This document shows, piece by piece, positions 6,986 to 31,190 of a stretch of DNA of 64,000 bases; within the stretch, counting starts at the first letter, position 1, and each line of letters begins with the position of its first letter. Made by a program: the position numbers and the translations under genes. The stretch is taken from NCBI RefSeq assembly GCF_002946835.1, contig NZ_CP026652.1, positions 7,812,001 to 7,876,000 of the forward strand. Reading direction: 5' to 3'. The DNA is from Streptomyces dengpaensis. Its GTDB lineage: Bacteria; Actinomycetota; Actinomycetes; Streptomycetales; Streptomycetaceae. Below the pieces are notes generated by a model. That model made no database searches and was not told the origin of the DNA. It was given only the letters and a program-made list of their open reading frames with translations.

Positions 6986-7029
6986 GAGCACACAAGGCTC
7001 CCGTGTCGGGGTGTCGTTGAGGCTCCGCG

Positions 7030-7770: not shown

Positions 7771-7849
7771 GCCGGCGATCCTATGCGCCCGCTCTGCAAC
7801 GACATCCGCACCGTCGCCAAACAGAGATCAACTCTCTGACCGACGCAAG

Positions 7850-8229: not shown

Positions 8230-8259
8230 GGCTTCTCCTCAACATCTGGCTCGGGGCGC

Positions 8260-8311
8260 GGGCCGAAACAACGGGCTCTGGACGTGGGCCGAAACAACGG
8301 GCCCTGGACGC
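8260..8311. repeat. Two tandem copies of a 26-bp repeat
   Basis: Two head-to-tail copies (8260-8285 and 8286-8311), each starting GGGCCGAAACAACGGGC, differ at two positions; a partial third copy follows. They lie in the 322-base gene-free stretch 8230-8551 between the dehydratase chimera and the LysR gene. An AT-rich patch at 8428-8446 in the same stretch could be a promoter for the chimera; I see nothing else there. Confidence 0.7.
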
Positions 8312-8551
8312 GGGCCGGGAGCTACCACCGGCTGACCCCTTCACCGGGCCTGTGCCACCGGGCGAGGGTGGGGCGGTCGGCCATGGGAGTCATGGCGAGG
8401 GCTCATCATCATGCGGGCTGATGGGTGGCCTTGAATAATAGAAATGCGTGATGCCGGCATGCCCCGGCGGTATGGCGGGGCCGCAGGCCCGCGCACCGCA
8501 CCAGGCGCCGTGCCGCGCACGGCAACCGGTACCGGACGGCGCCGGGAGTCG

Positions 8552-9502: not shown

Positions 9503-9536
9503 CGCTCCTCGACACCATCTTCCATCTGCGCTGGGC

Positions 9537-9569
9537 ATGGGCCCATCAAAAAATGGTATTTCACCTACC
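9537..9569. promoter_or_regulatory. Palindromes in the LysR/CoA-transferase divergent region
   Basis: The 273-base divergent region contains a perfect palindrome ATGGGCCCAT at 9537-9546. Next to it is GGTA-N7-TACC at 9555-9569, inside the only AT-rich patch (AAAAAATGGTATTTC). The position just upstream of the LysR start suits an autoregulatory LTTR site. The exact T-N11-A spacing is not met, so the assignment is tentative. Confidence 0.35.
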
Positions 9570-9775
9570 GCGCCATGAGCATCCATGATGGCACTGCTGC
9601 CGGAACGAGGGAGGTTCCCGGAATACACCGCGTCACCCTGCGGTGCATCGGGCGGCTCGAGGGCGACCGCACTCGTCCTCGGCGCCGGCGGATCTCTGTG
9701 TGACCCCTGCGGGAGATCCGTCGGCGCGGCCCCCCTGGTCAGCACGTTCCTCGGACAACCCCTGGAGGTCAGACC

Positions 9776-10960: not shown

Positions 10961-11052
10961 CAGCACGCTTCGGCACTGAAGAAGCGAACGCCTCTGCACC
11001 GAAAGACGCGAAACCTCGGCACTGAAAGTGCTGAAAAGAGGAGGAGTACACC

Positions 11053-12219: not shown

Positions 12220-12238
12220 CGGCACGGCACGCGGGGAG

Positions 12239-12270
12239 CAGCGCTCTACAACGTCCGTGGTGGAGCGCTG
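12239..12270 (+). terminator. Stem-loop after the acyl-CoA dehydrogenase gene
   Basis: CAGCGCTC at 12239-12246 pairs perfectly with GAGCGCTG at 12263-12270 across a 16-base loop, 20 bases after the stop codon. It could be a terminator or processing hairpin that separates the dehydrogenase from the etfB remnant. Confidence 0.45.
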
Positions 12271-12328
12271 AAGAACAGAAAGCGGCCCGGACGAGGGCTG
12301 TCATGGGGAACCACGAGACGCCCTCAAG

Positions 12329-12645
12329 ATGAACATCATTGTGTGTGTGAAGTACGTGCCCGACGCCACTGGCGACCGGCACTTCGCCGATGACCTGACC
12401 GTCGACCGTGACGACGTGGACGGTCTGCTCTCGGAGCTCGACGAGTACCCGTCGAGCAGGCGCTGCAGATCGCCGAGAACGCGGACGACGCCGAGGTCAC
12501 TGTGCTGACGGTGGGCCCGGAGGACGCGAAGGACGCGCTGCGCAAGGCGCTGTCCATGGGTGCGGACAAGGCGATCCACGTCGAGGACGACGACCTGCAC
12601 GGCACGGACGTCATCGGTACGTCGCTGGTGCTGGCGAAGGCGAAT
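12329..12645 (+). pseudogene. etfB: Electron transfer flavoprotein beta subunit, frameshifted and 3'-truncated
   Basis: An ATG at 12329 starts NIIVCVKYVPDATGDRHFAD, the actinobacterial EtfB N-terminus. After LLSELDEY (about 12449) the frame shifts to VEQALQIAENADDAEVTVLT, and continues through DALRKALSMGADKAI to GTSLVLAKA, where homology ends abruptly near 12643. Less than half of a normal (about 260 aa) EtfB remains. etfA is absent. The remnant directly follows an intact acyl-CoA dehydrogenase, its natural electron donor. Confidence 0.8.
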
Positions 12646-13134
12646 TGCCGGGCTCGGCGGCCGGCCGCTGGCCGCCTGCCTGGACTCGACTCGCTGACCA
12701 CGTCCTGCCGCGCATCACGCCGTCCATCGGCTTCGAAGCGACCTCATGACCCGATTCGCCGACCCCCGCCTGCTGCCCGCTCCCTTGCTGCTGGTGCGTT
12801 GTCCTCGCCGCTCGGTCGGTGCCGCTCAGCCCTGGGGGCTGCCCGCGACGTAGAGGACCTGTCCGGTCGCACGGACCCCTCGCCGACAGCACCCACACCC
12901 GCGTCGCCGAACTGCTCGCCCACCACGACGACCGGCTGTGCAAGACCCTCGCCGCGCTCGCGGACCGTACGTACGACGCCTTCCGGGGTTCGAAGCAGGC
13001 ATTCAGGGGCAATCGCGCAGAATCCGGGAATTCGGTTCTCCTCTTCATAAAAGAGGTAAAGGCGCAAAGGAGCGCATAGATCGCCAATGGACGTACTGTA
13101 TGGGGAGGTGGGGCCACACAGCCGGAGGAGCGAG
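12646..13134. other. Gene-free stretch with possible coding relic and a small hairpin
   Basis: No convincing gene. Around 12880-12990 the plus strand has protein-like codons (HTRVAELLAHHDDRLCKTLA) that I cannot place in a family; this may be another relic. At 13040-13056 CCTCTT and AAGAGG flank CATAA in the only AT-rich spot before the phosphatase gene, which may mark its promoter or an operator. Confidence 0.4.
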
Positions 13135-15537
13135 ATGCGCGGGTCCACCCCTGGCGCCGGAGAGCGGGTGCTCTCCTTCGCCGGTTTCGCGACGGCCGTG
13201 CTCGACGACGAGGGCACCGTGCTGTTCTGGTCTCAGGCGGCCACCGAGCTGGTGGGCTGGACGGCCGAGGAGGTCTGTGGCCGCCCGGTGAGGGTCCTGC
13301 TTGCCGACGCCTCGCCCTCCGAGTGGCCTGCCGCACGGGAGGCCGGCGTTCCCGCCGGTGGTCGCGTACTGCTCCGGCACCGTTCAGGCGGTTCGGTCGA
13401 AGTCACCTTCGAGGTGCTGCGGTCGGAACACTCCGCTGAATGCCTCGTGCTGATCGCGCCCACCGCGCAAGTGACCGACCGCGAGCAGGGCGCGAATCTC
13501 CTGTGCACGCTGCTTGCCCAGGACCGTATCGGAATCTCCGTCCACGACGTGGACCTGACCGTCGTGCGGACCAACATCGCGTCCGAGAAGTTCGGCGGCT
13601 CCGCTCTGCCCCCAGGCAGCCGTCTGGCGGACGTGATGTCCCCACAGGACGCCGAGACCGCCGAGACCACGCTGCGCCGGGTGCTCGAGACGGGTGTGCC
13701 ACTGACGGGGCGGGGCGTGTGCATGCCGGCACCCCATACCCCACCGGGGCACTGGACGTCGTTGTCCGCTTTCCGGCTGGACGACGCCGAAGGGGCTCCG
13801 ACGGGCGTCGTCGCGATGTTCACGGACACCCCGGCGCAGCAGCGGGCCCTGCGGGAGCTGGACCTGCTGCACGAGGCCGCCACCCGCATCGGAGGCTCCC
13901 TGGACGTCGTCGGTGCCGCGCAAGACCTGGCGGACGTCGTCGTGTCCGCTCTCGGCGACCTCGCCTGGGTCAATCTGGCCAATGCCGTGTTCGAAGGTGA
14001 CGAACCCCCCAGGTTCATCGGTGGGCGAAAGCCGTATCTGCGCCGGGCGGCCGTGGCCTCGCGCACCGGCCCCTGGCCCGCCGCCCTTCTCCAGGTCGGC
14101 GAGTCGGCCCCTCCGCTGCCGTACTCGGCCGCACTGCGGGACGTCCAACACGGCCGGACCGTCATCCTCGACCGGGCGAAGGCGGCCGCTGCGCTCAGCC
14201 ACCCTGGACAGTCGCGGCAGTTCATCCCCGAACGCGGGCACTCGGGTCTCTGGGCACCGCTGTTCGCCCGCGGTCTGGTGCTGGGCAGCGTTACCGTCTG
14301 GCGTACCGAGCAACCGGATCCGTTCGACGAGGAGGACGCGGAACTGGTCGCGGAGATCGCCTCACGAGCCGCGCTGAGCGTGGACAACGCGCGGCGCTAT
14401 ACCCGCGAGCACCGCTCGGTTCTCGCGCTGCAGCAGAGCCTGCTTCCCCCGCCCACGACCGACAGCCTGGCGGCGGAGACCGCCGGCTACTACCTGCCCG
14501 CCGGCGGCGGGGCCGACATCAGCGGCGACTGGTACGACGTCATTCCCCTGCCGTCCTTCCGGGTCGCCATGGTCGTCGGAGACGTGTTCGGCCACGGCCT
14601 GTACGCCACCGCCACCATGGGCCGCCTCCGCACCGCCGTCCGTACCCTTACCGACCTCGAACTCGACCCCACCGAACTGCTCACTCACCTCGACGACCTC
14701 GTGCAGCAACTCGTTGGAGAGGCGGAGACAGGAAGCACTGTCGGTGCCACCTGTCTATACGTCCTCTACAACCCGGTCTCTCGCAGATGCGGAGTGGCCA
14801 GCGCCGGTCACCCGCCGCCCGTCGTGGTCCGGCCCGACGGAACCGTGGAAGTGATCGACGTTTCCCCGGGTCCGCCACTGGGAGTGGGCGGCATGCCGTT
14901 CGAGACCACCGTCATCGACCTGGAACCCGGCAGCGTTCTCGCTCTGTACACCGACGGCCTGATCGAACGAGATGATGTCGACGGCGGCCTGATGTGGCTG
15001 AAAGAAAGCCTCGCGGTCCTGTGCCGTCCTGACCGCGCGCTGTCCGACACCGGCCGCGCACTGCTCCCCGGCCTCGGGGACCCCCCGCCTCGCGACGACA
15101 TCGCCCTGCTCCTGGCCCGCACCCGGGCCGTACCGGCGGACAACGTCGCGAGCTGGGAGTTCGCCGCTGAGCCTGAGGTCGTGGCCACCGCCCGCCAGGC
15201 CGCCGCCGAGCAGCTGGCCGCCTGGGGGCTGGAGGAGGTGGCCTTCACCACCGAGCTGGTCGTCAGCGAGCTGGTCACCAACGCGGTCCGTTACGCCGGG
15301 GGCCCGATCGGGCTGCGGCTGATCCGCGAGAACGTGCTCGTCTGCGAGGTCACCGATCCCAGCAACACCCAGCCCCGCCTGCGCCGGGCCCGCTGGACGG
15401 ACGAGGGAGGACGCGGCCTGTTCCTCGTCGCCCAGCTCACGAACCGCTGGGGGAGCCGCTACGGCCCGCACGGAAAGACCATCTGGGCCGAGCAGTCCCT
15501 CGTACCGGACGCCATCGACTTCGCGGCGCTCATGTGA
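13135..15537 (+). CDS. PAS/GAF-domain SpoIIE-type PP2C phosphatase with C-terminal HATPase domain
   Basis: About 800 residues. In order: a PAS domain (~14-115; [21 protein letters not shown]), a second PAS-like region (~125-240; [14 protein letters not shown]), a GAF domain (~255-425), a SpoIIE PP2C phosphatase (~450-650; [42 protein letters not shown]) and an RsbW-like ATPase (~670-795; [30 protein letters not shown]). This architecture controls sigma factors by partner switching in Streptomyces, the sensor domains reading an unknown cue. The start at 13135 is chosen because GGAGGAG precedes it; the in-frame ATG at 13087 has none. It is monocistronic. Confidence 0.92.
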
Positions 15538-15596
15538 ACCGCGCCCGGCGGTCTGCCGGTTGCGGTCCGCCGGGCGCTTCGGCACAGGTGTCGGGT

Positions 15597-16739
15597 GTCC
15601 GGGTCGGTGACGACTGCGCGGTGGAAGGGGATGGCGGTGGCCATGCCGTCGATGTGGAATTCGGCGAGGGCGCGGGCGGCGCGCTGCAGGGCCTGTTCGC
15701 GGGTGGCGCCGGTGACGATGAGTTTGGCGAGCAGGGAGTCCCAGGCGGGGCCGATGACGGCGCCGGACTCGACGCCGGCGTCCAGGCGGACGCCGGGGCC
15801 CGAGGGCGGGGTGAAGGTGGTGACGGTGCCGGGGGCGGGCAGGAAGCCTCGGCCGGGGTCTTCGCCGTTGATGCGGAACTCGAGGGAGTGGCCGCGCAGT
15901 TCGGGGTCGGTGTAGCCGAGGGGCTCGCCGTCGGCGATGCGGAACATCTCGCGGACCAGGTCGATGCCGGCGACTTCCTCGGTGACGGGGTGTTCGACCT
16001 GCAGGCGAGTGTTGACTTCCAGGAAGGAGATGGTGCCGTCGGCGTCGACGAGGAATTCCACGGTGCCGGCGCCGACGTAGCCGGCTTCCTTGAGGATCGC
16101 CTTGGAGGAGGAGTACAGCTCGGCGACCTGGGCGTCGGACAGGAAGGGGGCGGGGGCTTCCTCGACGAGTTTTTGGTGGCGGCGCTGCAGGGAGCAGTCG
16201 CGGGTGGAGACGACGACCACGTTGCCGTGGGTGTCGGCCAGGCACTGGGTCTCGACGTGGCGGGGTTTGTCGAGGTAGCGCTCGACGAAGCACTCGCCGC
16301 GGCCGAAGGCGGCGACGGCCTCGCGCACGGCGGACTCGTACAGTTCGGGGACCTCGTCCAGGGTGCGGGCCACCTTCAGGCCGCGTCCGTCGCCGCCGAA
16401 GGCGGCCTTGATGGCGATGGGCAGGCCGTGCTCCTTGGCGAACGCGACGACCTCCTCGGCGCCGGAGACCGGGTCGGGGGTGCCGGCGACCAGGGGGGCG
16501 CCGGCGCGCTGGGTAGGGTTTCTCCAGACCGAAGTCGGTCGACCGGTGCCGCGCGAACTCGTCGAACTCGACGAAGGACCCGTCGTCCATCAGCAGCTCG
16601 ATCCGCTCACGGGCCGTCAACTTGCCCTTGGCGTACTGCTTTTCGACCGCGCGCTCCGAGCCGCGTGCGTCGCCTCCTGGATACGGCGCCGCAAGTCAGC
16701 GAGCTTGCCCGCGGTGGTGCGGATGTCGATGTCGTTCAC
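15597..16739 (-). pseudogene. Acyl-CoA carboxylase chimera: beta-subunit N-terminus fused out of frame to an alpha (biotin carboxylase) fragment
   Basis: From a GTG at 16739 the minus strand starts like propionyl-CoA carboxylase beta ([17 protein letters not shown]). A one-base loss near 16690 shifts it to [20 protein letters not shown] and [12 protein letters not shown]. Near 16520 it switches, again out of frame, to the biotin-carboxylase half of an alpha subunit ([70 protein letters not shown]). It ends at [11 protein letters not shown] without the biotinyl domain. It sits immediately downstream of the mutase gene, so a carboxylase-mutase operon has collapsed here. Confidence 0.8.
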
Positions 16740-19638: not shown

Positions 19639-20664
19639 CTACGGATTCCGGCGTCGGGCCGGTCTCCGCGGCATGGGCTCGGCTTCCCGGGGACCGGCGG
19701 CCACCGCTTCGGAGTCGAGGATCTGATCCCCGTACACATCCTTTATCCAGGTGGTCTGGTAGACGGTGTCGAGGTAGCGCTCTCCCAGGTCCGGGGCGAT
19801 GGCCACAGCGGTGAGGCCAGGCGTCTCATGCTGGGCCAGCCACTCCATCGCGCCGCTGACCACCGTGCCGGTGGAGCCGCCGAACAGGAACCCGTGTCCG
19901 GCCAGACGGTGGCAGGCGCGGATGGTGTCGGCCTCCTCGACCTGTATCACCTCATCCACATAGGACTCGTCCAGCAGCGGCGGGCGCATGCTCATGCCCA
20001 GGCCGGGAATCAGCCGGCGGCCCGGCTCACCGCCGAAGGCCACCGAGCCGACGGTGTCCACCGCGACGATCCGCACGGGCCGGTGCCACTTTCGGAAGTA
20101 GCGCGCGCAGCCCATCAGGGTCCCGGTGGTCCCCGCTCCGACGAACAGCACGTCCAGCTGCGGGAACTGGCGGGCGATCTCCTGCGCCGTCGTGCGGTAG
20201 TGCGCCCGCCAGTTGCCCGGATTGGTGTACTGGCTCAGCCACACGTACCGGTCGTCGGAGGAACACAGCGCGCGTACGTAGTTGATCCGGGCGCCGAGGA
20301 AACCGCCGTTGGCGTCCAGGTCGGCGATCACGTGCACCTCGCCGCCCAACGCCTCCATCAGCAATCTGGTCGACAGATTGCAGCGGGAGTCGGTCACACA
20401 CAGGAACCGGTATCCCTTGCTCGCGGCGATCATGCTGAGCGCTACGCCCAGGTTTCCGGACGAGGACTCGACCAGTACCGAATCCGGCGTCAGGAGTCCG
20501 TCCTTCTCGGCGGCCTCCACCATCTCTACCGCGGCCTTCAGTTTGATCGAGCCGGCGAAGTTGAAGCCCTCGCACTTCAGGTAGAGGGAGTGCCCGAAAA
20601 TCGGCTCGAGGTCGACGTAGAGCTGACGTTCGTTAAAGGCATGTGGAGCGGAGATGATGGGCAC
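19639..20664 (-). CDS. sbnA: SbnA-like PLP-dependent synthase (2,3-diaminopropionate pathway)
   Basis: 341 residues of a fold-type II PLP enzyme closest to SbnA, which joins O-phosphoserine and glutamate to N-(1-amino-1-carboxy-2-ethyl)-glutamate. The PLP Lys lies in [12 protein letters not shown] near residue 42, the phosphate loop is [10 protein letters not shown], and the cofactor loop is [11 protein letters not shown]. The GTG at 20664 has AGGAGG seven bases upstream. It is the last gene of a five-gene minus-strand operon, 37 bases after sbnB. The pairing with SbnB makes this assignment much safer than a generic cysteine synthase call. Confidence 0.88.
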
Positions 20665-20701
20665 GCTGGCCTCCTGATGCCAGGGCTGACGGACAGGGTG
20701 A

Positions 20702-21772
20702 TCAGCCGTGTCGGCGCAGTTCGTGGAAGAAGTCGTCGATGAGGCGGAGGTGCCCGGCCCGGGCCACTTCGTCGTAGACGTACTTGCCGACGGCGAGGTC
20801 GAGGACGCCGAGTCCGAACGGCGAGAAGATCACCGGTCGGTCGGTCGGAAGGGTGATCCTTCCTGTCATGACATCGTTGAGGGTGCCGTCCAGGAAGCCG
20901 CGGCTGCCGGTGAGCTGCTCGGCCAGGTGGGGAGAGGTGTCGGCTTTCAGACAGTGCTCGACGTCGTCGACGATGTTGGCCGAGCCGAGCAGGATCTCGG
21001 GGGCGAGATCGCGCAGGGACACGTGCAGGACCACGGGGTTGTGGGTGAACCAGGCCGGGTCGGTGACGTGGGGTTTGCCCGCGATGGTGGCGAAGACCAC
21101 CAGGTCGCTGGAGCGGATCAGCTCTTCGGCGCTGTCGTGGACGACGACCTGGCCGGCGCCGCCGGCCTCCCGCAGGTAACCGCAGAATCCGGCGGCGCTG
21201 TCGGTGGACACATCGTGCGCACCGATGGTGTCGAACGTCCAGCCGGTGCCGGCCAGGAAGGTGTGGATGTAGCGGGCGATCAGACCCGTGCCGAAGAATC
21301 CGATACGGGTGGGGCGGCGCCCGGTGCGGGTGAGCCAGTCCGCTGCCAGCGCCGCGGACGCGGCCGTTCTGGTGGCGCTGATGATGGAGCTTTCCAGACA
21401 GGCGAACGGATAGCCGGTGTCGTGGTCGTTGAGGATGAGGACCGCGGAGGCTCGGGGCAGGCCCGCTGTGACGTTCGCGGGAAAGCTGGAAATCCACTTC
21501 AGGCCGTCCACGCGTACCGGCCCGCCGAGGGAGGACGGCAGCGCGATGATCCGGTCCTTGGGACGGTCGGCGAAGCGCAGGAAGTACGACGGGGGATTGA
21601 CCGAGTCCCCGGCGCCGTGCAGCCGGTAGGTGGCCTCGACCAGGTCCACGATCTGTTTCTCACGCCCGTCGAGTGCCTGCTGTACCTGGGCACCTGGGAT
21701 CACCGCGAAGGTCGGCGCCGGGGCCGGCTGCGAGGCGGTGCTCTGGGTGGCGGTGGATGTCACAGAGGTCAT
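20702..21772 (-). CDS. sbnB: SbnB-like N-(1-amino-1-carboxy-2-ethyl)-glutamate dehydrogenase
   Basis: 356 residues of the ornithine cyclodeaminase/mu-crystallin fold. The Rossmann motif GFFGTGLIARYIHTFL is near residue 154, and VDGLKWISSFPANV contains the substrate-region Lys. SbnB oxidatively splits the SbnA product to L-2,3-diaminopropionate and 2-oxoglutarate using NAD. The ATG overlaps the stop of the dioxygenase gene (ATGA at 21769-21772), so the two are translationally coupled. The 2-oxoglutarate released is the co-substrate of that dioxygenase. Confidence 0.88.
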   Translation of the reverse strand: MTSVTSTATQSTASQPAPAPTFAVIPGAQVQQALDGREKQIVDLVEATYRLHGAGDSVNPPSYFLRFADRPKDRIIALPSSLGGPVRVDGLKWISSFPANVTAGLPRASAVLILNDHDTGYPFACLESSIISATRTAASAALAADWLTRTGRRPTRIGFFGTGLIARYIHTFLAGTGWTFDTIGAHDVSTDSAAGFCGYLREAGGAGQVVVHDSAEELIRSSDLVVFATIAGKPHVTDPAWFTHNPVVLHVSLRDLAPEILLGSANIVDDVEHCLKADTSPHLAEQLTGSRGFLDGTLNDVMTGRITLPTDRPVIFSPFGLGVLDLAVGKYVYDEVARAGHLRLIDDFFHELRRHG

Positions 21773-22773
21773 CGCTGACTTGCCTCCGGGGTCGGGCGGC
21801 CGTCGGGCAGGCGCTGAGGCTCTGCCATGGCGACCAGTACCTGACGGTCCCCCGTGAAGGCCTCTCTGCTGTGTGCGGTGCGAATGTTGTCGACCAGCAT
21901 CACGTCACCGGCCTGCCAGGGCTCGCGTCGGGTGTGTTCCTCGTAGGTGGTGTTGAGCGTCTCGACGACGTCCTCGTCGATCGGAGTGCCGTCTCCGAAG
22001 CGGGTGTTGAACGGCAGCCCGTCCTCGCCGTAGACGTCCACCAGGTACTCGCGCACCTCCGGGGCGAGCGTCCACTCGTTGAGGAAGGCGATCTGGTTGA
22101 ACCAGCAGCGCCGGCCGGTGACCGGGTGCCGTACCACCGCGCTGCGGCGCTGCCGCGTGCGCAGGGATCCGTCGGGCTGCCAGTCGAAGTCGATGGCGTG
22201 GGCGCGGCAGTAGCTCTCGATGGCCGCGGGGTCGTCGGTGCCGAACGACTCCTCCAGGGACGCCCCGATCTCGTCGTTGTAGGAGCGGGTGAGCAGCCAG
22301 CCCTCACGCTCGAACCGCTCACTCAGTGCGGTGGGCAGCGCCTGAAGCACGGCTTCCGCGTCGGCCACCGCGGTCGCCCCGCCTTGGCCGGGTGCGGTGA
22401 GACACGCGAAGAGCATCAGGCCGGGAACGTCCAGCGTGTAGCTCAGTTCATGGTGCATGCACATCGGCTGGTTGGCCGGCCAGGTGGTGGAGGAGTACAG
22501 ACCGGAGCCGTGGCTCTGCCGGGGGGCGAAAGCCTCCCTCTCCGTCATCAACGTTCCGGCCAGCTTCGCGAAGACCGCACCGGCCTCGTCCGGCTCCCGC
22601 AGCCCCAGACCACGGACGAGAATCGCTCCGTGCTCGGTGACCTGCGCCCGCAGCGCACGGCGGTGCTCCGTCGCCCAGCCGGACGCCTCAACAGGGGCCT
22701 CGACATGCAGGATCGGTGGCTTTCCGGCGGACAGTTCCACCTCGAGCAGTGATGCCGGGGATGAGAACGACAT
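21769..22773 (-). CDS. TauD/TfdA-type Fe(II)/2-oxoglutarate-dependent dioxygenase
   Basis: About 334 residues from the ATG at 22773, preceded by AAAGGA. The fold is that of TauD/SyrP/clavaminate-synthase oxygenases. The iron ligands are in MCMHHELSYTLD (His-x-Glu type), and the distal His with the 2-oxoglutarate Arg in VDNIRTAHSREAF near the C-terminus. Such enzymes hydroxylate amino acids free or on carrier proteins in NRPS pathways. Lying between the NRPS and the diaminopropionate genes, it most likely hydroxylates diaminopropionate or the assembled product; this is inference from position. Confidence 0.85.
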   Translation of the reverse strand: MSFSSPASLLEVELSAGKPPILHVEAPVEASGWATEHRRALRAQVTEHGAILVRGLGLREPDEAGAVFAKLAGTLMTEREAFAPRQSHGSGLYSSTTWPANQPMCMHHELSYTLDVPGLMLFACLTAPGQGGATAVADAEAVLQALPTALSERFEREGWLLTRSYNDEIGASLEESFGTDDPAAIESYCRAHAIDFDWQPDGSLRTRQRRSAVVRHPVTGRRCWFNQIAFLNEWTLAPEVREYLVDVYGEDGLPFNTRFGDGTPIDEDVVETLNTTYEEHTRREPWQAGDVMLVDNIRTAHSREAFTGDRQVLVAMAEPQRLPDGRPTPEASQR

Positions 22774-22816
22774 CTCGTTTTCCTTTCGTTGATCACCCAA
22801 GGAGACTCAAGGGTGT

Positions 22817-25800
22817 TCAGGAGGGGGCCGGCGATTCGACGGCGCTCAGTACGGCCTGCGCGGCTTCCAGTACGGCCTGCGCGGCCTCGGCCGGACGGGT
22901 GCGCAGGAAGTAGTGGCCACCGTCGGCGAGTTCGCGCAGGTTCACCTGCTCGGCCAGGAGCTGCCAGTCCCGATGGCGTTCGGGGAAATCCCGCGTGCTC
23001 GGGTCGTCGGCGGCGACGACCACGGTGACCGGCGCGGAGAGCTTGACCGCCGGCGGGGATTCCAGCGCATCGGCGAAGTAGTGGTGCGCGGACACGCAGT
23101 CGTGTCGGTAGGCGGCCCCGACATGCTCGGCGTGCTGTGCGTTGAGCTCGCCGAGCTCCGTGTGGCCGCTGTCGGCGCGCAGCCTCGCGGCGATCTCGGC
23201 GCTGCTCCGCCTGGTCAGTTCGGTGATGGCGGCGCGCCGGTCGGCAGCGGTGCCGAGCAGCTGCGCGGCGAGGAACACCCGCGGCACATCCACCCCGTGC
23301 TCCAGCAGCCTCCTCGCCGTCTCCACGGCGAACCCGGCTCCCGAGGAGTGGCCCCATAGCATGACCCTGGTCAGGCCACGCCCGGTGATCTCGGCGACGG
23401 TCTGCTCCACCACCTGCGTCATCGGCGCGAACGGCTCGCTGTGGGCGGCGAGATCGTGACCGGGCAGGTCGACGGCGTAGACCGCCGGCCCGCTGCCCGC
23501 CAGGGCGCTCGCCATCGGCTGGAAGTTGACCGCGTTGCCGCCTGCGTAAGGGAAGCACACCAGGGCGCAATCCGGCGCACCCGCCGATTCCGACAGCGGC
23601 TGAAGCAGCTCCGGGCGCTGCGGGGTTGTCCCGTCGAGGAGCGCGGCGAGGTCGGCGAGTTTCGGGTGGCGGGTGATGTCCTTGAGGGACACCGCACGGT
23701 CCAGGGCGATGGTGAGCTTCACCGCCGACAGGGAGGTGCCGCCGCGGTCGAAGAAGTGGTCCTGCCGGCCGATCTGGTGCTCGGACATGCCCAGCAGCTC
23801 GGCCCAGGCGGCGACCAGTTTGCGCTCGGTCGGGGTGCGCGGGGCGTGCTGGTCATCGCCAGTGACATCGACTTCCGTGCTGGGCGCGGTCTGTTCGGCC
23901 AGCGCGGTCAGGGCCTTTCTGTCGATCTTGCCGTTGGCGGTCAGCGGCAGGCTCTGCTGCCAGTGCAGGCCGGACGGGACCATGTAGGCGGGGAGGGTGG
24001 CGCCCAGTGCATCACGCAGCGCCGCCGGCTCCTGGGACCGGCCGGTGTAGAAGGCGATCAGGTGCGTGCTCCGGCCGGCCAGCTCGGCGACGACCACCGC
24101 GGCGTCCCGTACTCCGGGAACCCGCAGCAGGGTGTTCTCGATCTCGCCGATCTCGATACGGAATCCGCGGATCTTGACCTGGTTGTCCCGGCGGCCGAGG
24201 AACTCCAGCTTGCCGTCGGGATGCCAGCGCCCCCAGTCGCCTCCCAGGTAGAGCCGCTCGCCCGGCCGGTACGGATCGTCCAGGTACGCGGCACGGGTTC
24301 GTTCGGGATCGTTCACGTATCCCCGGCCCACGCAGACCCCGGAGAAGGCGATCAGCCCGGGGGCGCCCAGCGGCACCAGCGACAGATGCTCATCGACGAC
24401 GTACACCCGCACGTTGTTGACCGGACGCCCCAGCAGCACGCGTTCCGGCACCGCGTCCATGACCTCGTGGTTGGTGTCGTCCGAAGTCTCGGTCAGCCCA
24501 TAGGCGTTGACCAGCTTGATCCCCGGCTGAAGGGTGAACCAGCGCTGGACCAGCTCCCGCTTCAGCGCCTCGCCGGTCACCGACACACAGGCCAGGTCCG
24601 GCAGTTCGCGGGGATGCTGCTCCAGATAGGAAACCACCACCTCCAGATAGGAGGGCACGACCTGTACCACCGCGACCCGGCCGCGGACCAGCGTGTCGAC
24701 GAACCGCTCCACGTCCACGATCACGTCCTGCTCGACCAGCAGGGTCCGGCCGTCCACGAGCAACGCGGCCAGCAGCTGCCACAGGGAGATGTCGAAGCAC
24801 TGCGGGGCCGTCTGCGCCACCACCTGCCCCGGGCCGATCTCCAAGTCGTCGATCTTGGCGTACAGATGATTGAGCATGCCCGCGTGCTCGCACATCGCGC
24901 CCTTCGGCTCCCCGGTGGAGCCGGAGGTGAAGTACATGTACGCCAGCTGATCGGGCGTGACCTTCACTCCGACATCGCCGTCGGCGTGCCGTTCCGCATA
25001 CGCCGTCTCGACCAGCAGCCTCTCGACCTCCGGCAGCGTGTCCAGGGCCCGGTCGAGGGCCTCAGTGCTGCCGGACTCGGTCAGCACCATCCGGCAGCCG
25101 GCTCGCGACAGCGTCGCGGCGATACGTCCCGCCGGAAAATGCGGCTCGATCGGCAGGTACACGCCTCCGGCCTTGAACACCGCCAACACCGCGGCCAGCC
25201 AGTCGAGATTGCGCTCGGTGACCACGCCGACCACTTGTTCGCGGCCCAGTCCGCGCGCCAGCAGCGCCCTCGCCAGCCGGTTCGCGCGTGCGTTGAGTTC
25301 GCCGTACGTCCATGAGTGATCGCCGTGCACAGCGGCCACCGTCTCCGGATGCGCCCGCACGCGCTGCTCGAACAGTTCGTGCGCCCGCCCCTCCGGCAGC
25401 TTCCGGTGCGGCCCGGCGAGCCCTTCGAGCTGATGGCGCACTTCATCGGGCGACAGCAGACTCTGCCCCGCATGCCCGGCGTCCACGTCCGCCGCCATCG
25501 CACCCAGCGCGGCCAGGTGGTAGCCGCCGATCCGAGCTGCGCCCTCGGCATCGAGCACGTCCGTGCGATACCGCGACAGCACCACCGGTCGCCCGTCCCG
25601 ATCACACCAGCCCACCCGCAACGCCGTGCCTCCGGCCGGCTCACCCTGGGTTCCCTCAGGATCGAACACGAACTCGTACGACGACTCCGTCGCCCCCAGC
25701 TCCCGGCGCAGTTCCTCCACCGGGAAGTCCCGATGGGCCAGCAGTTCCGCCTCGACGCGACCAGCGCTCAGCACCAACTGGCGCCACGATGTGGGTGCGA

Positions 25801-26101
25801 CGGTCAGCCGGCACGGCAGAGGAACGTCTCCCGGCGCGGCGACGTAGCCCGTCACCACCTCCTGCTCACCCGACAGCGCGGCCAGCACCTTGGCATGCGC
25901 GGCGAGCAGCACCGCACTCACCGGCACACCCAACTCCACGGCCAGCCCGCGCACCGCCACGAGCACATCGCCCGGCACTGCCGTCTCGTGTGCGGCCACC
26001 CCCGCCACCGGCTCCCTAACCCACTGTGGAACGGGGGTGGAACCACCGGCGGCCAGCACACCGCTCCAGAAATCTCGGTCCGCCTGCACGTGCGCTCCCA
26101 T
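22817..26101 (-). CDS. NRPS: half-condensation domain, adenylation, thiolation, thioesterase
   Basis: 1,094 residues from an ATG at 26101 with GAGAGG upstream. Residues ~5-215 resemble only the C-terminal half of a condensation domain (starts RDFWSGVLAAGG; no HHxxxDG). Adenylation spans ~235-735: WTYGELNARANRLARAL, YFTSGSTGEPKGAM near 390, NAYGLTETSDDTNHE, GRRDNQVKIRGFRIEIGE, TANGKIDRKAL. Thiolation is ~755-822 with Ser790 in DRGGTSLSAV. The thioesterase is ~845-1085, with GHSSG (Ser919), Asp1032/1033 and His1063. By alignment to GrsA the pocket reads D-I-W-Q-S-T-A-D-D-K. The adjacent SbnA/SbnB pair makes 2,3-diaminopropionate the likely substrate. It lacks a full condensation domain, so bond formation must be done elsewhere, probably by the upstream membrane protein. 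Confidence 0.93.
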   Translation of the reverse strand: MGAHVQADRDFWSGVLAAGGSTPVPQWVREPVAGVAAHETAVPGDVLVAVRGLAVELGVPVSAVLLAAHAKVLAALSGEQEVVTGYVAAPGDVPLPCRLTVAPTSWRQLVLSAGRVEAELLAHRDFPVEELRRELGATESSYEFVFDPEGTQGEPAGGTALRVGWCDRDGRPVVLSRYRTDVLDAEGAARIGGYHLAALGAMAADVDAGHAGQSLLSPDEVRHQLEGLAGPHRKLPEGRAHELFEQRVRAHPETVAAVHGDHSWTYGELNARANRLARALLARGLGREQVVGVVTERNLDWLAAVLAVFKAGGVYLPIEPHFPAGRIAATLSRAGCRMVLTESGSTEALDRALDTLPEVERLLVETAYAERHADGDVGVKVTPDQLAYMYFTSGSTGEPKGAMCEHAGMLNHLYAKIDDLEIGPGQVVAQTAPQCFDISLWQLLAALLVDGRTLLVEQDVIVDVERFVDTLVRGRVAVVQVVPSYLEVVVSYLEQHPRELPDLACVSVTGEALKRELVQRWFTLQPGIKLVNAYGLTETSDDTNHEVMDAVPERVLLGRPVNNVRVYVVDEHLSLVPLGAPGLIAFSGVCVGRGYVNDPERTRAAYLDDPYRPGERLYLGGDWGRWHPDGKLEFLGRRDNQVKIRGFRIEIGEIENTLLRVPGVRDAAVVVAELAGRSTHLIAFYTGRSQEPAALRDALGATLPAYMVPSGLHWQQSLPLTANGKIDRKALTALAEQTAPSTEVDVTGDDQHAPRTPTERKLVAAWAELLGMSEHQIGRQDHFFDRGGTSLSAVKLTIALDRAVSLKDITRHPKLADLAALLDGTTPQRPELLQPLSESAGAPDCALVCFPYAGGNAVNFQPMASALAGSGPAVYAVDLPGHDLAAHSEPFAPMTQVVEQTVAEITGRGLTRVMLWGHSSGAGFAVETARRLLEHGVDVPRVFLAAQLLGTAADRRAAITELTRRSSAEIAARLRADSGHTELGELNAQHAEHVGAAYRHDCVSAHHYFADALESPPAVKLSAPVTVVVAADDPSTRDFPERHRDWQLLAEQVNLRELADGGHYFLRTRPAEAAQAVLEAAQAVLSAVESPAPS

Positions 26102-26114
26102 CGAATGGCCTCTC

Positions 26115-28718
26115 TCAATCCGCCGACGCCGAGGCGTCGTTCGTCGCGGACGTGCCCACTGCCGCTGCCGAGCCCATACCGAGAGGCTGAGCCCGGGCAT
26201 CCGGAATCTCCGCGGCGGGGTTCCCGCCCCACCGTGCGTCAGGGGGGACTTCCTCGCCTTTCATGAGGAAGGAATCGGGTGCCAACTCGGCTCTGTCACC
26301 CATCGTCACGCCGTAATGCACGTGTGCGTCCACCCCGAGGGTGCAGCCGGCGCCGAGAACGGTGTAATCCGACTTGAAGGTGCCGTCCTCCTGCGAATGG
26401 CACTGGATTTTGGTCCCGGAATTGAGCGTGCAGTCATCACCGATGGTGGTGAGCGTCCGCTCGGTCACATAGCAGCCGTCGTCGAATACCCGGCTGCCGA
26501 TGCGCACGCCCAGCATTCGCCAGATCAAGCTCTTGAAGGGGGTTCCGTTGAACAGGTTGAGGTATTCGTCCGGCACCTTCCAGAGGCGCTCGTGCCACCA
26601 GAAATACGGGTCGTAGATGGAGCACAACTGGGGGCGCAATGCCCGGAAGGAAGCGATGCAGCGCTCCACCAGGAGGTAGTAGACGGCGCTGAATCCGAGG
26701 GTGAGTGCCAGGAACGCGGCGATCGCCACATGCTCGAGCGCACCGTACAGGGTGAGGGTCGCGAGGCCGAACGCCGTGAGAGCGAAGCTGAGCAGCCACC
26801 GCAGGAACAGGAACATGGTCATCGAGCGGAGGTTGTAGCGGTTTTTCGCGGAGAGATGGCGGTGCAGTTCGTCGCCGGTCCTGAGATGGTCGAACCGGGA
26901 GTCGCGCTCCACCGACCGGGGAATCTCGAAGGGCGGTGAGCCGAGCAGTCCGATCCCTTCGCGCATCTCACCGTCGAGGGGAACCAGTACCTTCGTCGCG
27001 AGCAGGCAGTTGTCACCTGTCCTGGCTCCCGCGGGATAGGCGATGTTGTTGCCCAGGAAGTTGTGCGGACCGATGGATGCCCGGGTCACCAGGAAGGATG
27101 TGCTCGAGTAGTCCGCGTTGATGATGGAGAGCCCGTCGGCCACCATCGTTCCCGTGCCGACCGAGGCCAGATACGGAGTCTCGTGCTGCATTTCCGTGCC
27201 GAAGTTGGACCCGGTCTGCTCGACCCGGGACAGGTCGTATCCGAGGCGGCGAAGGTAATGGACGATGTAGGAGCTGTCGCCGAGGAGCCAGGCGAAGAAC
27301 TTCGGGTTCGTCATCCTGGATATCGCCCGGTGCACCGAGTAGTGGAAGCCGTAGAGCGGATAGACCTTGTCGGGTTCGATGACCAGATTCAGCAGGCGTG
27401 GAACGGCGAACACGACGACGATGCCCACGACGATGGAGCCGAAGAACAGCAGGGCGGACAGGGCCATCGCGTCGAGGAGGAACGCCCACGACATGAGGCC
27501 GGCCGTCTCGCCGCCGAACCACCTGTCGAACGCCGGAACCTCGGTGACGACCATGTACACACCGCCGACCGCCAACGGCATGTACAGGAAGAACAGTTGA
27601 AGCAGGGTGACCAGGCCGAACCCGAACCGGCGCGGCGTGCCGCACGGAGCCGGTGCGACCCGCACGTAGTCGGTCTCCGTGGCTTGTGCCGGGGATCCGT
27701 GCCGGCGCTCGCCGTCCGGGACCGACTGGCCTCGGTACAAGGCGGACGCGTGGCCCAGCTGAGCTCCGTCGCCCATCGACGTGTCGATGTCGAGGACGGT
27801 CTTCTCGCCCACGTACACGTCACGGCCGAGCGTGACCCGTCCGGTCTGGATGCGCCCGGCTTGCGCTCGGTAGCAGAGGAAGAGCGAGTCCTTGCGGATC
27901 ACCGTACCGGCGCCGATCGTGAGCAGGTCGGTGCAGACGGGGACGGACGGGGAGAGGATCGTGACTCCCTTGCCGATGTGCGCGCCGAGCGCCCTGAGGT
28001 ACAGCACATACAGCGGATTGCCGACGAAGAAGATCATGGGGTTGGCGTGGATCAGCACCTTGACGAGCCAGAAGCGCAGATAGGCCGGACCCCAGATCGG
28101 GAACTCACTGGGTTTCCAGCGTCCGACGAGGATCCACTTGGCCGCGATCGGGAAAACGCAGAGGGCGACGAAGCCGGTGGCGGCGAACAGGACCGATCGC
28201 AGATAGATGCCGGCGAGACCTGAGCCCGCGGCGACCCACTCATAACCCTGAGCGGCGACAAGTCCGTTGACGAGGGAATATCCCAGGAAGATCAGCAATT
28301 GGGCTGTTCCGCACAGGACATACGTCAGGGTGCTCGCCGTGGTGACCGGTGCCGGCGCCGTCTTGGGCGCGGGTGCCGAGCCGGGAAGCGATGAATCGGC
28401 GGGGGCCGGAGAGGCGTCGGCGAGAGCCGCGGCCAGGCTTCGGATCGTGGGGTTCCGGTAGATGTCCTTCATGGACACGGACGGCAGATCCGGCTGCTTC
28501 CGTATTCGTGCACAGAATTGAGCCATGACCAGGGAGTTGGCGCCGAGGTCTTCGAAGAAGTTGCTTTCGGCTGCGATGTGTTCGACGGAGACAACGCCGG
28601 CGAGTATGTCGGCAAGTCTCCGCTCGGTGTCCGTCGTTGCCGGGCCGGCGCTGTCACGCCCGGCCACCCAGGGTTCGTCCGGCCCGGGTATCAAGATGTC
28701 GGCCGACACCTCTTCCAT
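26115..28718 (-). CDS. Membrane protein with thiolation domain and Pls-type NRPS terminal domains
   Basis: 867 residues from an ATG at 28718 with GAGGAG upstream. Residues ~30-102 are a carrier domain with Ser62 in FEDLGANSLVMAQF. The rest matches the C-terminal part of epsilon-poly-lysine synthetases ('NRPS terminal domain of unknown function'). There are transmembrane helices around 131-155, 165-195, 366-392, 408-440, 632-660 and 662-690, and three left-handed-beta-helix regions at ~243-335 (LGAHIGKGVTILSPSV), ~515-595 and ~735-830 (LGVRIGSRVFDDGC). In Pls these tandem domains catalyse iterative amide formation at the membrane. Here they are detached from the adenylation domain, which is the next gene 13 bases downstream. 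First gene of the operon. Confidence 0.88.
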   Translation of the reverse strand: MEEVSADILIPGPDEPWVAGRDSAGPATTDTERRLADILAGVVSVEHIAAESNFFEDLGANSLVMAQFCARIRKQPDLPSVSMKDIYRNPTIRSLAAALADASPAPADSSLPGSAPAPKTAPAPVTTASTLTYVLCGTAQLLIFLGYSLVNGLVAAQGYEWVAAGSGLAGIYLRSVLFAATGFVALCVFPIAAKWILVGRWKPSEFPIWGPAYLRFWLVKVLIHANPMIFFVGNPLYVLYLRALGAHIGKGVTILSPSVPVCTDLLTIGAGTVIRKDSLFLCYRAQAGRIQTGRVTLGRDVYVGEKTVLDIDTSMGDGAQLGHASALYRGQSVPDGERRHGSPAQATETDYVRVAPAPCGTPRRFGFGLVTLLQLFFLYMPLAVGGVYMVVTEVPAFDRWFGGETAGLMSWAFLLDAMALSALLFFGSIVVGIVVVFAVPRLLNLVIEPDKVYPLYGFHYSVHRAISRMTNPKFFAWLLGDSSYIVHYLRRLGYDLSRVEQTGSNFGTEMQHETPYLASVGTGTMVADGLSIINADYSSTSFLVTRASIGPHNFLGNNIAYPAGARTGDNCLLATKVLVPLDGEMREGIGLLGSPPFEIPRSVERDSRFDHLRTGDELHRHLSAKNRYNLRSMTMFLFLRWLLSFALTAFGLATLTLYGALEHVAIAAFLALTLGFSAVYYLLVERCIASFRALRPQLCSIYDPYFWWHERLWKVPDEYLNLFNGTPFKSLIWRMLGVRIGSRVFDDGCYVTERTLTTIGDDCTLNSGTKIQCHSQEDGTFKSDYTVLGAGCTLGVDAHVHYGVTMGDRAELAPDSFLMKGEEVPPDARWGGNPAAEIPDARAQPLGMGSAAAVGTSATNDASASAD

Positions 28719-29091
28719 GCGAGCTCCTCGAGCAAAGGTCGAAACCATCGGCCGGCGGTGACCGGTCCGGGGTTCTGGGCAATGGCCGAACCGCCCCATC
28801 CGGAGGCCGCGTGACCTTGCGCTTCTGCCTGATCACGAAGCCGTGAGCCTCAGTCTGTGTCCGCCATCGGCGGGTTGCCACTCGAAGACGATCGCGACGA
28901 CACGCCAGGAGTGCCGAACAGGCCGCCACCTCTGGATTCTCCGCACCACTGGGGGGAGCGGGCAGGTCACTCGAATGGCTGTCGGCTCCCGTACACCAGG
29001 CGTCGAGTCGGTTCCGTGCAGGGGGCGTCGACTCGGTTCCGAGCACGACACGTCGCCCCGGTTCAGCAGAACGCCGGCTCGGGCTGTGCCC
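28719..29091. other. Gene-free region upstream of the diaminopropionate operon, with a 17-bp direct repeat
   Basis: No gene seen in 373 bases. The operon promoter should lie here, on the minus strand. A near-perfect repeat (GCGTCGASTCGGTTCCG, one mismatch) occurs at 29000-29016 and 29025-29041, 25 bases apart. No regulator gene adjoins it. Confidence 0.45.
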
Positions 29092-29898
29092 TCAGTTGTT
29101 CCAGCTCTCGTCGTACGGGTCGTGCGGCGCGGGGACCGGCCTGGCCAGGCTGACGTCAAGGAACGGGATGATGCCGCCGTTGACGGGGTCCTTGGTCCGT
29201 TCGCTGGTGTAGGTACCGGTGACTTCGAGCCAGGTGTCGGGCTGGAGGACGGGCGGGATCCGCCCGGTCAGGCCGACCTTGACGGGTTGGGCGTCGGCGG
29301 CGCAGCAGTTGAGGGCCATGCGCACGAGGTACGGCGTGCCGCTGCGGTCGAGGGCGACGAAACCGGTGATCCTGATCCGCCGGTCGCCGAGGGAGCGGCC
29401 CTGGTCGTAGGCCGCACGGCCCGCGTAGTCGACCAGGCTGAGCGGGAGCGGGTCACCGGCCGGGAGGGCGGGGTAGCCGAAGGGCGCCTGCAGAGCGGTA
29501 CCCGTGCGCATGGCGCTGTACGAACCCAGGGCGGGCGGGGCGACCAGGATCAGGGCGAGGAGGGGGAGGACGAGGAGCCAGGAGACACGCGGTTCACGGT
29601 GAGCGTGGCCGTGGCCGTGGCCGTGCTCGTGCCCGCCCCCGCTTCCGTGCTCGTGCCCGGTCCCGTGCTCCCGCGTATCGCTGTGGTCGTCCTCCGGCCC
29701 GCTCCCCGGCGTCACCCGTCGCCCCCGCACCTCGTACCACACCGTGGCGACGGCAGTCACGATCAGCACAACACCCGCCCCGAGCAGCAAAGGCCGCAAC
29801 CCGGCCTTGACGTACCGGAGGTAGACGTCGGTGGCGCCCGCGTGCAGCACCGACGCACCGACCAGGAACAGTACGGCCGCTTGCGCCTGCCGGTTCAC
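29092..29898 (-). CDS. TIGR03943-type putative permease partner with His-rich linker
   Basis: 268 residues. Two N-terminal hydrophobic segments (VLFLVGASVLHAG; LLLGAGVVLIVTAVATVWY) precede a cytosolic linker of repeated His-Gly/His-Glu pairs. A third hydrophobic segment (VSWLLVLPLLALILVAPPAL) and an extracytoplasmic domain containing LNCCAADAQPVKV follow. This family is always found with a DUF318/YraQ permease, here directly upstream. The GTG start at 29898 overlaps the permease stop (GTGA). A metal-related function is suggested by the His repeats and the Cys pair, but no substrate is known. Confidence 0.8.
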   Translation of the reverse strand: MNRQAQAAVLFLVGASVLHAGATDVYLRYVKAGLRPLLLGAGVVLIVTAVATVWYEVRGRRVTPGSGPEDDHSDTREHGTGHEHGSGGGHEHGHGHGHAHREPRVSWLLVLPLLALILVAPPALGSYSAMRTGTALQAPFGYPALPAGDPLPLSLVDYAGRAAYDQGRSLGDRRIRITGFVALDRSGTPYLVRMALNCCAADAQPVKVGLTGRIPPVLQPDTWLEVTGTYTSERTKDPVNGGIIPFLDVSLARPVPAPHDPYDESWNN

Positions 29899-30914
29899 AG
29901 CAGCACCGCCCCGACCAGGACCGACATGAGGACCGCCAGGGCGAAGGTGGCGGGGGCGAAGCGCAGCGCGAACCCGCGGCCGAACGTGCCGACCTGCATG
30001 GCGAACAGCTTCAGGTCGATCACCGGTCCCACGACGAGGAATGTCAGCCGTGCCGTCAGCGAGAACTGGGACAGCGACGCGGCCACGAACCCGTCGGCCT
30101 CGGAGCAGATCGACAGCACCACGGCGAGGATCGCCAGGGCGAGGACCGACACCACGGGATGGCCGGCTGCGGCCTGCAGCCAGCTCGCCGGTACGACGGC
30201 CTTGAGCGTGGCCGCGGCCATCGCGCCGACCACGAGGAAGCCCCCGGCGTGCATCACGTCGTGGCGTACGGAACCCCAGAACGCCGCCCCCTTGCCGAGG
30301 CCTTGGTGCCCCGGGCGGGCCGGCGGGCGCAGCCAGTCGGTGCGGCCTAGGCGTTGCCACAGCCACCCCATCGCACAGGCCACGAGCAGACTCGCCACGA
30401 ACCGGGCGAGGACCATCTCCGGATCGCCCGGGAACGCCACGGCCGTGGCGGTCAGCACGATCGGGTTGATCGCGGGGGCCGACAGCAGGAACGCCAGCGC
30501 CGCCGCGGGGGTGACACCCCGGCGCACCAGCGCCCCGGCCACCGGCACGGAGGCGCACTCGCAGCCGGGCAGGACCGCCCCGGCCATCCCGGCGACCGGC
30601 ACCGCCAGCGCGGGCCGGTCCGGCAGCGCCCGGGCGAAGAGCGACGGCGGCACGAACACCGCGATGACCGCCGACAGCAGCACGCCGAGGACCAGGAAGG
30701 GCAACGCCTGGATCACCACCGCCACGAACACGGTCATCCAGCTCTGCATCACCGGCGCGGACAGCGCCCGGCGGGCCGGCCCCTGCGCCGCGATCACCAG
30801 GAGCAGCAGCATGGTCAGGACGAGAGGGGAGTTGAACTGCCAGCCCCGCCATCCCCGCCGGTCGTCCGCGTCGCGGTGGTCCACCGGGGGCGGGGCTGCC
30901 TTGGTGATGGTCAC
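29895..30914 (-). CDS. DUF318/YraQ-family permease
   Basis: 339 residues, about eight or more membrane helices. The diagnostic segment AVLPGCECASVPVAGALVRR near residue 110 is the family's Cys-x-Cys permease loop, followed by FLLSAPAINPIVLTATAVAF. Later LSICSEADGFVAASL matches the second conserved motif. The GTG at 30914 has GGAGGA upstream. With the overlapping His-rich partner gene it forms a two-gene transport or metal-handling operon whose cargo cannot be told from sequence. Confidence 0.85.
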   Translation of the reverse strand: MTITKAAPPPVDHRDADDRRGWRGWQFNSPLVLTMLLLLVIAAQGPARRALSAPVMQSWMTVFVAVVIQALPFLVLGVLLSAVIAVFVPPSLFARALPDRPALAVPVAGMAGAVLPGCECASVPVAGALVRRGVTPAAALAFLLSAPAINPIVLTATAVAFPGDPEMVLARFVASLLVACAMGWLWQRLGRTDWLRPPARPGHQGLGKGAAFWGSVRHDVMHAGGFLVVGAMAAATLKAVVPASWLQAAAGHPVVSVLALAILAVVLSICSEADGFVAASLSQFSLTARLTFLVVGPVIDLKLFAMQVGTFGRGFALRFAPATFALAVLMSVLVGAVLL

Positions 30915-31059
30915 GGGTGAGGTTCCTCCGGTCGGGAAGGGCTCGGCGACGTGCGGCCCTCTGCCATGAGTACGCCGCTTGAGGCACAGCTTCTCACCGC
31001 GCGCCCCAACCTCTGCGGGCCGGTGGCCACTTCGTCCGCGTCCCGTGCCGGGACGTCCC

Positions 31060-31094
31060 GCCTGCCTCGCCTGAACACGTCTCGACAGGCAGGC
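31060..31094. promoter_or_regulatory. Inverted repeat upstream of the YraQ-type operon
   Basis: GCCTGCCT at 31060-31067 pairs perfectly with AGGCAGGC at 31087-31094 (19-base loop). It lies in the divergent region between the permease and the monooxygenase remnant and could be an operator for either direction or a leader hairpin. Confidence 0.35.
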
Positions 31095-31190
31095 CGACGA
31101 CGGCGGATGCTCGGGATTCCGTGGACAGCGGATCCACGGCCCCACTTGCATGGCCACGTGTACGGACGGCCCCACCCGTCAGGAGGCACC

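Follow-up and report, generated by a model that had tools for sequence, protein, structure and literature searches.

Which product is made by an operon that sets a membrane-anchored terminal domain of the poly-lysine synthetase (Pls) type beside a separate nonribosomal peptide synthetase (NRPS) protein, an oxygenase and genes for L-2,3-diaminopropionate (Dap) supply? Such a locus occurs in Streptomyces dengpaensis, and we analyzed it within a stretch of 64,000 nucleotides of NZ_CP026652.1 (positions 7,812,001–7,876,000, forward strand). We refer to this stretch as the window, and its coordinates are counted from the window start. The comparisons described here tilt modestly toward an operon for an oxidized oligomer or polymer of Dap, which would be assembled by a split, membrane-anchored synthetase.

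The five genes share the minus strand and occupy 19639..28718, tightly spaced as a preliminary description of this DNA had stated. The most upstream gene encodes a protein of 867 aa (26115..28718) that consists of a carrier domain (T2) followed by the terminal domain (TD). We call this protein T-TD; its profile scores (PF00550 and TIGR02353) were computed on an 894-aa open reading frame (ORF). Then comes the NRPS gene (22817..26101), whose 1094-aa product contains half a condensation domain (half-C), an adenylation (A) domain, a further carrier (T1) and a thioesterase (TE), as recognized by the Pfam models AMP-binding, PP-binding and Thioesterase and an alignment of 24 sequences. It is followed by genes for a TauD-family Fe(II)/2-oxoglutarate oxygenase of 334 aa (21769..22773), the Dap biosynthesis dehydrogenase SbnB (20702..21772) and SbnA, the pyridoxal phosphate (PLP) enzyme of Dap biosynthesis (19639..20664). 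Calculated from the coordinates, the successive junctions are 13 bp, 43 bp, a 4-bp overlap and 37 bp. SbnB (TIGR03944, 415.8 bits; cutoff 326.9) and SbnA (TIGR03945, 392 bits; cutoff 349.95) are adjacent, and each exceeds its NCBIfam equivalog cutoff. The oxygenase start was placed at an ATG with a ribosome-site-like stretch; its PF02668 score (152.5 bits) comes from a longer ORF that begins at 22800.

Conservation of the gene set

To assess how far the set is shared, we scanned with the oxygenase, taking one genome per species. This gave 434 relatives, and the best 80 of the 434, all from Streptomyces, make up the named set. All five genes occur in the same order and on one strand in 79 of these 80 loci; the sole departure (L122) sits on a 4.5-kb contig. 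TE is present in 78 of the 79 complete loci, and in a few of the named loci genes are broken or truncated (L077, L090 and L103). Outside the operon, the most widely shared gene family was found in 13 of 100 loci (by a crude gene caller), and an MFS-like gene, named by eye, in 12 of 100. Because no outside gene is widely shared, none appears to belong to the set. A chance neighborhood was ruled out, as the order is held while the flanks differ. Here and below, absence of a gene near a locus means absence within a retrieved stretch of 20 kb or less.

Searching with T-TD and with the NRPS protein independently gave a similar picture. The NRPS gene lies directly downstream of T-TD at 116 of 134 T-TD places, and T-TD is not adjacent at 34 of 150 NRPS places. 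Among 295 Streptomyces genomes, T-TD was found in 108 (E 1e-200), the NRPS protein in 125 (E 1e-150) and the adjacent pair in 103, with two pairs in 13; the pair counts compare lists cut at E 1e-150 and 1e-200. In a class-wide sample, T-TD relatives (E 1e-100) occurred in 13 of 296 genomes, 4 of the 13 being non-Streptomyces. These data show that the five genes are a genuine, widespread and apparently uncharacterized biosynthetic unit. The split-line reading of the preliminary description is partly supported, one amendment being that the set is not peculiar to one genome. A small operon whose T-TD/NRPS pair is this common in the genus has no product that we found in print, the search having covered open-licence full-text literature, where most subscription papers are missing. 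According to an excerpt of PMC11479980, SbnB of S. scabies is encoded near sbnA and an NRPS gene.

Natural fusions and the oxygenase

The best evidence that the separate proteins cooperate comes from natural fusions. At L172 (genome G105), T2, TD, half-C, A, T1 and oxygenase form one ORF of 2,323 residues (9661-16632), followed by SbnB and SbnA. Five further ORFs, of 1,062–1,180 residues, fuse A-T1 with the oxygenase: L055 (7025-10567), L175 (7155-10343), L190 (7635-10985), L192 (3341-6562) and L193 (7545-11075). In all six, the oxygenase directly follows T1 with no internal stop. L055 lacks TE, and its T-TD, SbnB and SbnA are each encoded by a gene of their own. These fusions argue that the window proteins, though encoded separately, work as a single line and that the oxygenase most likely acts on a carrier-bound substrate. 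The fusion at L172, taken with the kinship of TD described below, supports the earlier proposal of a Pls-type line that is split, has gained a second carrier and a TE, and is coupled to the supply of Dap.

Oxygenases of this family coordinate iron through an H-x-D/E...H triad and bind 2-oxoglutarate through an Arg. The corresponding residues (H107-x-E109, H301 and R310), the ligands expected of TauD, are intact in all 131 hits, some loci being counted twice. A halogenase variant was rejected since the triad carries Glu. The preliminary description had suggested that Dap may be hydroxylated. This is doubtful on chemical grounds, as C3-hydroxy-Dap with a free β-amine would be unstable: hydroxylation of free carrier-bound Dap at C3 gives a carbinolamine, which should lose ammonia. 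A stable oxidized unit would need the β-nitrogen acylated or lost, or oxidation on nitrogen. At least as likely as simple hydroxylation are desaturation, formation of an aldehyde, N-oxidation, or oxidation at a late stage of a β-N-acylated unit.

The adenylation domain and its substrate

The A domain (23897..25393) was delimited by Pfam and by code alignments, and its specificity code reads DIWQSTADDK. In a first alignment, eight aligned code positions were identical in 90 of 90 rows (two positions were unaligned, and the rows include loci taken twice, such as L040 and L056). A second alignment, in which comparator A domains with different codes were included, showed the full ten-letter code in the window and at 12 further loci. 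In a third set, 18 of 22 rows had the same code; the remainder had DIWQATCDDK (three) or DIWQSTTDDK (one).

The code is also kept where the supply genes differ. At L182 and L188, the places of SbnA and SbnB are taken by an SbnA-like PLP enzyme (212 and 208 bits, respectively, short of the 350 required for SbnA) and an ArgH-like lyase (TIGR00838, 299 and 289 bits, exceeding its cutoff), and L188 has a kinase gene that weakly matches a shikimate-kinase model (28 bits). An SbnA-like gene was detected by tblastn at L183, L187, L189 and L195 (29–32%). The six loci all have the same A code beside alternative supply genes, and some are without the oxygenase. L179, which has DIWQATCDDK, encodes a GHMP kinase and an ArgH-like lyase as well as a PLP/ATP-grasp fusion. 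Sets of a kinase, a PLP enzyme and a lyase produce 2,3-diamino acids, as for pacidamycin and friulimicin, and the factor common to both supply sets would be a vicinal diamino acid. L-Dap is most likely the substrate of the A domain, because the code is nearly constant and is retained even where another set of genes supplies the diamino acid. This comparative evidence supports the earlier assignment of Dap. The converse possibility, that SbnA and SbnB feed another pathway, was judged unlikely, since the A code is unchanged where a different supply set stands in.

A literature search for DIWQSTADDK gave no match. The one code that turned up was DVWQMIGDDK, which section 16 of PMC12283262 links to β-hydroxylated diaminobutyrate (Dab); the two codes have D.WQ...DDK in common. 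Plain Pls was excluded, as the A code differs and the synthetase is split.

The terminal domain

T2 spans aa ∼20–105 of T-TD (28404..28661; PF00550, 38.3 bits) and has the carrier motif GANSLVM; its Ser62 is unchanged in 29 of 29 aligned rows, one of which is the Pls-type L037. TD occupies aa ∼135–836 (26211..28316). It matches TIGR02353 at full length (positions 1-695 of 695) with 837.3 bits against a cutoff of 423.1, and has PF00132 hexapeptide repeats. A crude hydropathy scan gave about five hydrophobic blocks in three regions; the family has six transmembrane helices in three pairs.

Compared with five A-T-TD enzymes that have the code DFECLSVVTK (L205–L209), the window TD is 49.7–50.9% identical over 721–737 aa, versus 27.6–28.3% for an A-T-TD of the same genome with the poly-lysine-type code DAESIGTVVK. 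L205 sits after aspartokinase and diaminobutyrate transaminase genes, both checked with hidden Markov models (HMMs). At L206 the transaminase was recognized by HMM and a kinase-like gene by eye; at L208 and L209 neither gene was recognized by eye. L205 and L206 are probable poly-Dab operons, in which transaminase and aspartokinase accompany an A-T-TD with DFECLSVVTK. By these comparisons, the window TD appears clearly nearer poly-Dab/poly-Dap-type TDs than the poly-lysine-type TD, an assignment that rests on Phe at code position 2 (an excerpt of PMC10522769) and on the neighbors of L205.

A midpoint-rooted tree of 37 TDs, made without the DAESIGTVVK enzyme of this genome, grouped the Streptomyces T-TD and DFE sequences together and set five distant TDs apart. 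In another TD tree the Pls branch was very long, and rooting did not rely on that tree. L157 (7113-11189) is an A-T-TD with the code DAESIGTVVK, yet its TD is 57% identical to that of the window. The A code and the TD type therefore do not always pair, which weighs against a clean lineage split and suggests that A and TD parts have been exchanged. TD is also preceded by a varying number of carriers: a single one in the window, a pair in L160, L212, L214 and L216, three in L181 and as many as four in L051.

The half condensation domain and the thioesterase

The N-terminal part of the NRPS protein (half-C, 25487..26101) is a C-terminal lobe. Residues 1-215 match only positions 189-278 of 456 in PF00668, with 22.3 bits, under the cutoff of 30.6. 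The same part matches the C-terminal lobe of the McyA (208-346, E 3.6e-10) and AmbE (202-340, E 1.7e-9) chains. Because only the second half of the profile and these two lobes were matched, the label 'half-C' given in the preliminary description is correct. By profile position, the domain is without the half that bears HHxxxDG, the catalytic motif of condensation domains, and is not the complete C domain of a canonical NRPS elongation module.

At the other end of the protein, T1 (23612..23839; PF00550, 35.6 bits) has Ser790 in GGTSLSA, and TE (22817..23584; PF00975, 49.6 bits) has Ser919 in GHSSG together with Asp and His motifs. A monobactam-type TE was considered, in view of the Cys TE of SulM; the window domain has GHSSG. 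TE is missing in a clade that includes L036, L044, L052 and L055, among others. Since L036 is the second copy of the operon in this genome, and others are also without it, TE is dispensable. On anatomy, the preliminary description is largely right.

Other arrangements of the genes

The second copy, L036 (G000:C1:4945000-4964900, 6646-15420), has T-TD, half-C/A/T without TE, oxygenase and SbnB, with SbnA on the opposite strand (divergent). The genome also has a lone T-TD gene, L038 (G000:C1:8017000-8036900, 8907-11444), whose product is 58% identical. Elsewhere, A-T, oxygenase, SbnB and SbnA occur without T-TD at L170, L171, L173, L174, L184–L186, L190, L191, L193 and L194. L174 has a tryptophan halogenase. 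L193 has a phosphoglycerate dehydrogenase (TIGR01327, 529.5 bits), perhaps for phosphoserine supply, and at L173 and L193 the Dap cassette stands, by eye, beside a reductase and fatty-acid-like genes. Attempts to recognize a product from the NRPS neighbors of L170–L174 gave nothing.

Conversely, T-TD and oxygenase occur without SbnB at L051, L215 and two Pseudonocardia plasmids (L177 and L181). L051 (11225-14623) combines a four-carrier T-TD, the oxygenase and an acyl-CoA-ligase-like enzyme, recognized from sequence, with a small carrier-like protein seen by eye. L215 (8160-11144) has a T-TD with at least two carriers, the oxygenase and an acyl-CoA-ligase-like enzyme that passes the TIGR03098 cutoff with 759.7 bits. 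Neither SbnA nor SbnB was matched in the retrieved stretch of L051 or L215. The oxygenase thus pairs with either A-T or T-TD, consistent with a carrier-bound substrate. L217 (5611-10878) has T-TD, a leftover A-domain piece, SbnB and SbnA, and resembles the operon with most of the NRPS gene and the oxygenase lost. L213 and L214 are lone T-TD genes of two Streptomyces, with matching upstream genes that look from sequence like membrane-protein and nucleotidyltransferase-like genes.

Relation to known systems

PDAPs, the poly(L-diaminopropionic acid) synthetase of Streptomyces albulus PD-1, with its NjxA/NjxB pair, resembles the window operon in its Dap monomer, SbnA/SbnB-like supply and carrier with three-part membrane terminal domain, as described in an excerpt of PMC4668381. 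The same text presents PDAPs as one A-T-TD polypeptide without C or TE and with Dap genes not adjoining; the two were compared by description, not sequence. In the window operon, by contrast, A-T belongs to an NRPS protein of its own, the code is a different one, and there is an oxygenase. Pls (for ε-poly-L-lysine) and PosA (for δ-poly-ornithine) similarly have a TIGR02353-type TD fed by a carrier (an excerpt of PMC10522769). In the window, A and TD are on two proteins rather than one polypeptide, and the only fused relative (L172) has another domain order. The window NRPS protein also has half-C and TE, unlike the Pls/PosA family, which has neither C nor TE, although TE-less relatives of the window protein exist. 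The DFECLSVVTK enzymes have a TD ∼50% identical to that of the window, but their A domain is fused and has Glu at position 3; no oxygenase, SbnA or SbnB was matched in the retrieved stretches of L205–L209. Within the literature examined, in part as excerpts, cationic homopolymer synthetases are single polypeptides that make unmodified chains.

The SbnA and SbnB of staphyloferrin B belong to the same enzyme families, yet the window pair stands with a carrier-based line, not a siderophore synthetase. The capreomycin system, which we take to be without T-TD, is a further point of comparison. An excerpt of PMC12400406 reports that its Dap-specific A domain, CmnA-A1, loads a second carrier in trans, as we propose for T2, within a multi-module NRPS that has complete C domains (the CmnI C domain being solved).

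Proposed pathway and alternatives

These comparisons point to a split variant of the poly-Dap/poly-Dab-type synthetase, with a different A code and a carrier-acting oxygenase. In such a pathway, SbnA and SbnB would make L-Dap, as their family membership suggests. In S. aureus, the SbnB step releases one 2-oxoglutarate per Dap (quoted in an excerpt of PMC4668381), and this 2-oxoglutarate could serve the oxygenase as cosubstrate. The A domain would load Dap onto its own T1 and, in trans, onto T2. Oxidation of carrier-bound Dap by the oxygenase would most likely take place on T1, in view of the six fusions and of co-occurrence. TD, given its kinship with poly-Dab/poly-Dap-type synthetases, may join the units via the β-amine and, by way of its membrane part, may extrude the chain. 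TE, being dispensable, may edit or release, and half-C may be a non-catalytic remnant or a docking piece.

A fuller version, which we put forward tentatively and at less than an even chance, would amount to a new class of natural homopolymer, an isopeptide poly-Dap made by a two-protein polymerase, with units oxidized on the synthetase (e.g. to β-N-acyl-dehydro-Dap). Here A-T, oxygenase and supply genes would form an interchangeable cartridge, also used by other NRPS and fatty-acid-like clusters, and TD would be fed from tandem carriers. If true, a split synthetase with a carrier-acting oxygenase would widen the cationic homopolymer synthetase class, and it would separate loading, modification and polymerization, each testable alone. 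The A-T-oxygenase-SbnB-SbnA cassette could also serve as a search handle for oxidized Dap residues in other clusters.

Several observations weigh against an oxidized Dap polymer made by a split synthetase. Section 14 of PMC10522769 describes Glu at code position 3 as conserved in all cationic homopolymer synthetases, yet the window code has Trp there and does not combine Asp at position 1 with Glu at position 3 as in Pls and PosA. The idea of a polymerase split in two fits the separate T-TD and NRPS genes, but the A domain does not look like a detached Pls A domain. The cassette also serves T-TD-less clusters, which means that T-TD does not have to yield a polymer. Moreover, A-T-TE relatives with the same code and no oxygenase in the retrieved stretch exist (L187, L188, L189, L195 and L201), and T-TD is in places found by itself or next to genes for an acyl-CoA ligase and an oxygenase (L038, L051 and L215). 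The 2-oxoglutarate link, too, may not hold in Streptomyces, as NjxA/NjxB of S. albulus are reported to use serine and ornithine for Dap formation rather than phosphoserine and glutamate (an excerpt of PMC4668381).

An alternative with some weight, though unlikely, is a small antimetabolite line, in which Dap on T1 is oxidized and released by TE as a free oxidized amino acid or dipeptide, while T-TD forms one amide bond or exports the product. A-T-TE with a carrier-acting oxygenase does resemble lines that release modified amino acids, such as NikP1. The closest matches of half-C are the McyA and AmbE chains, and the AMB line has two 2-oxoglutarate oxygenases (an excerpt of PMC4357302). The occurrence of the cassette without T-TD also fits. 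Yet TE is missing from otherwise complete operons, including the copy in this genome; TD is full length and of homopolymer-synthetase type; and the one to four carriers before it suit iterative use.

Two further readings are distinctly less probable. The operon might make the known comb-like poly[β-(L-Dap-L-Dap)], with one carrier for the backbone, the other for side-chain Dap, and the oxygenase as an accessory. This polymer is reported from a poly-lysine-producing Streptomyces (Takehara 2021), and two carriers with a poly-Dap-type TD would suit it. However, its synthetase is an unsplit A-carrier-TD protein (PMC10522769, section 14), and an oxygenase kept in nearly every named locus would be left without a role, so we give this reading little credence. 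Nor do we expect that T-TD moves a Dap-derived group from a carrier onto an acceptor in the membrane or wall, modifying the envelope in a way that resembles D-alanylation. The membrane domain with its hexapeptide acyltransferase-like repeats, and the lack of any widely shared transporter or resistance gene around the loci, would agree with such a role, but TD is kin to synthetases of free polymers and no acceptor-specific gene is conserved around the loci.

A promoter-like element and upstream genes

The pattern AGTGGC-N22-ACTRA lies on the minus strand, 131 bp before the T-TD start (28850..28882). It was found exactly in 52 of 78 named upstream regions of T-TD, versus 3 of 4900 mononucleotide shuffles, which preserve base composition only. 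The exact element was not seen at seven lone T-TD genes of other genomes (L168, L210–L214 and L216). Genome-wide, S. dengpaensis has three copies, located before the window operon, before the lone T-TD gene L038 and at one other site. A reversed control pattern has five, so the copy number does not exceed chance and the information lies in the positions alone. As the same element precedes both T-TD genes, the two may possibly be co-regulated. Further upstream of the operon, at 29092-31175, two membrane-protein genes on the same strand look permease-like by eye and fall outside the conserved set.

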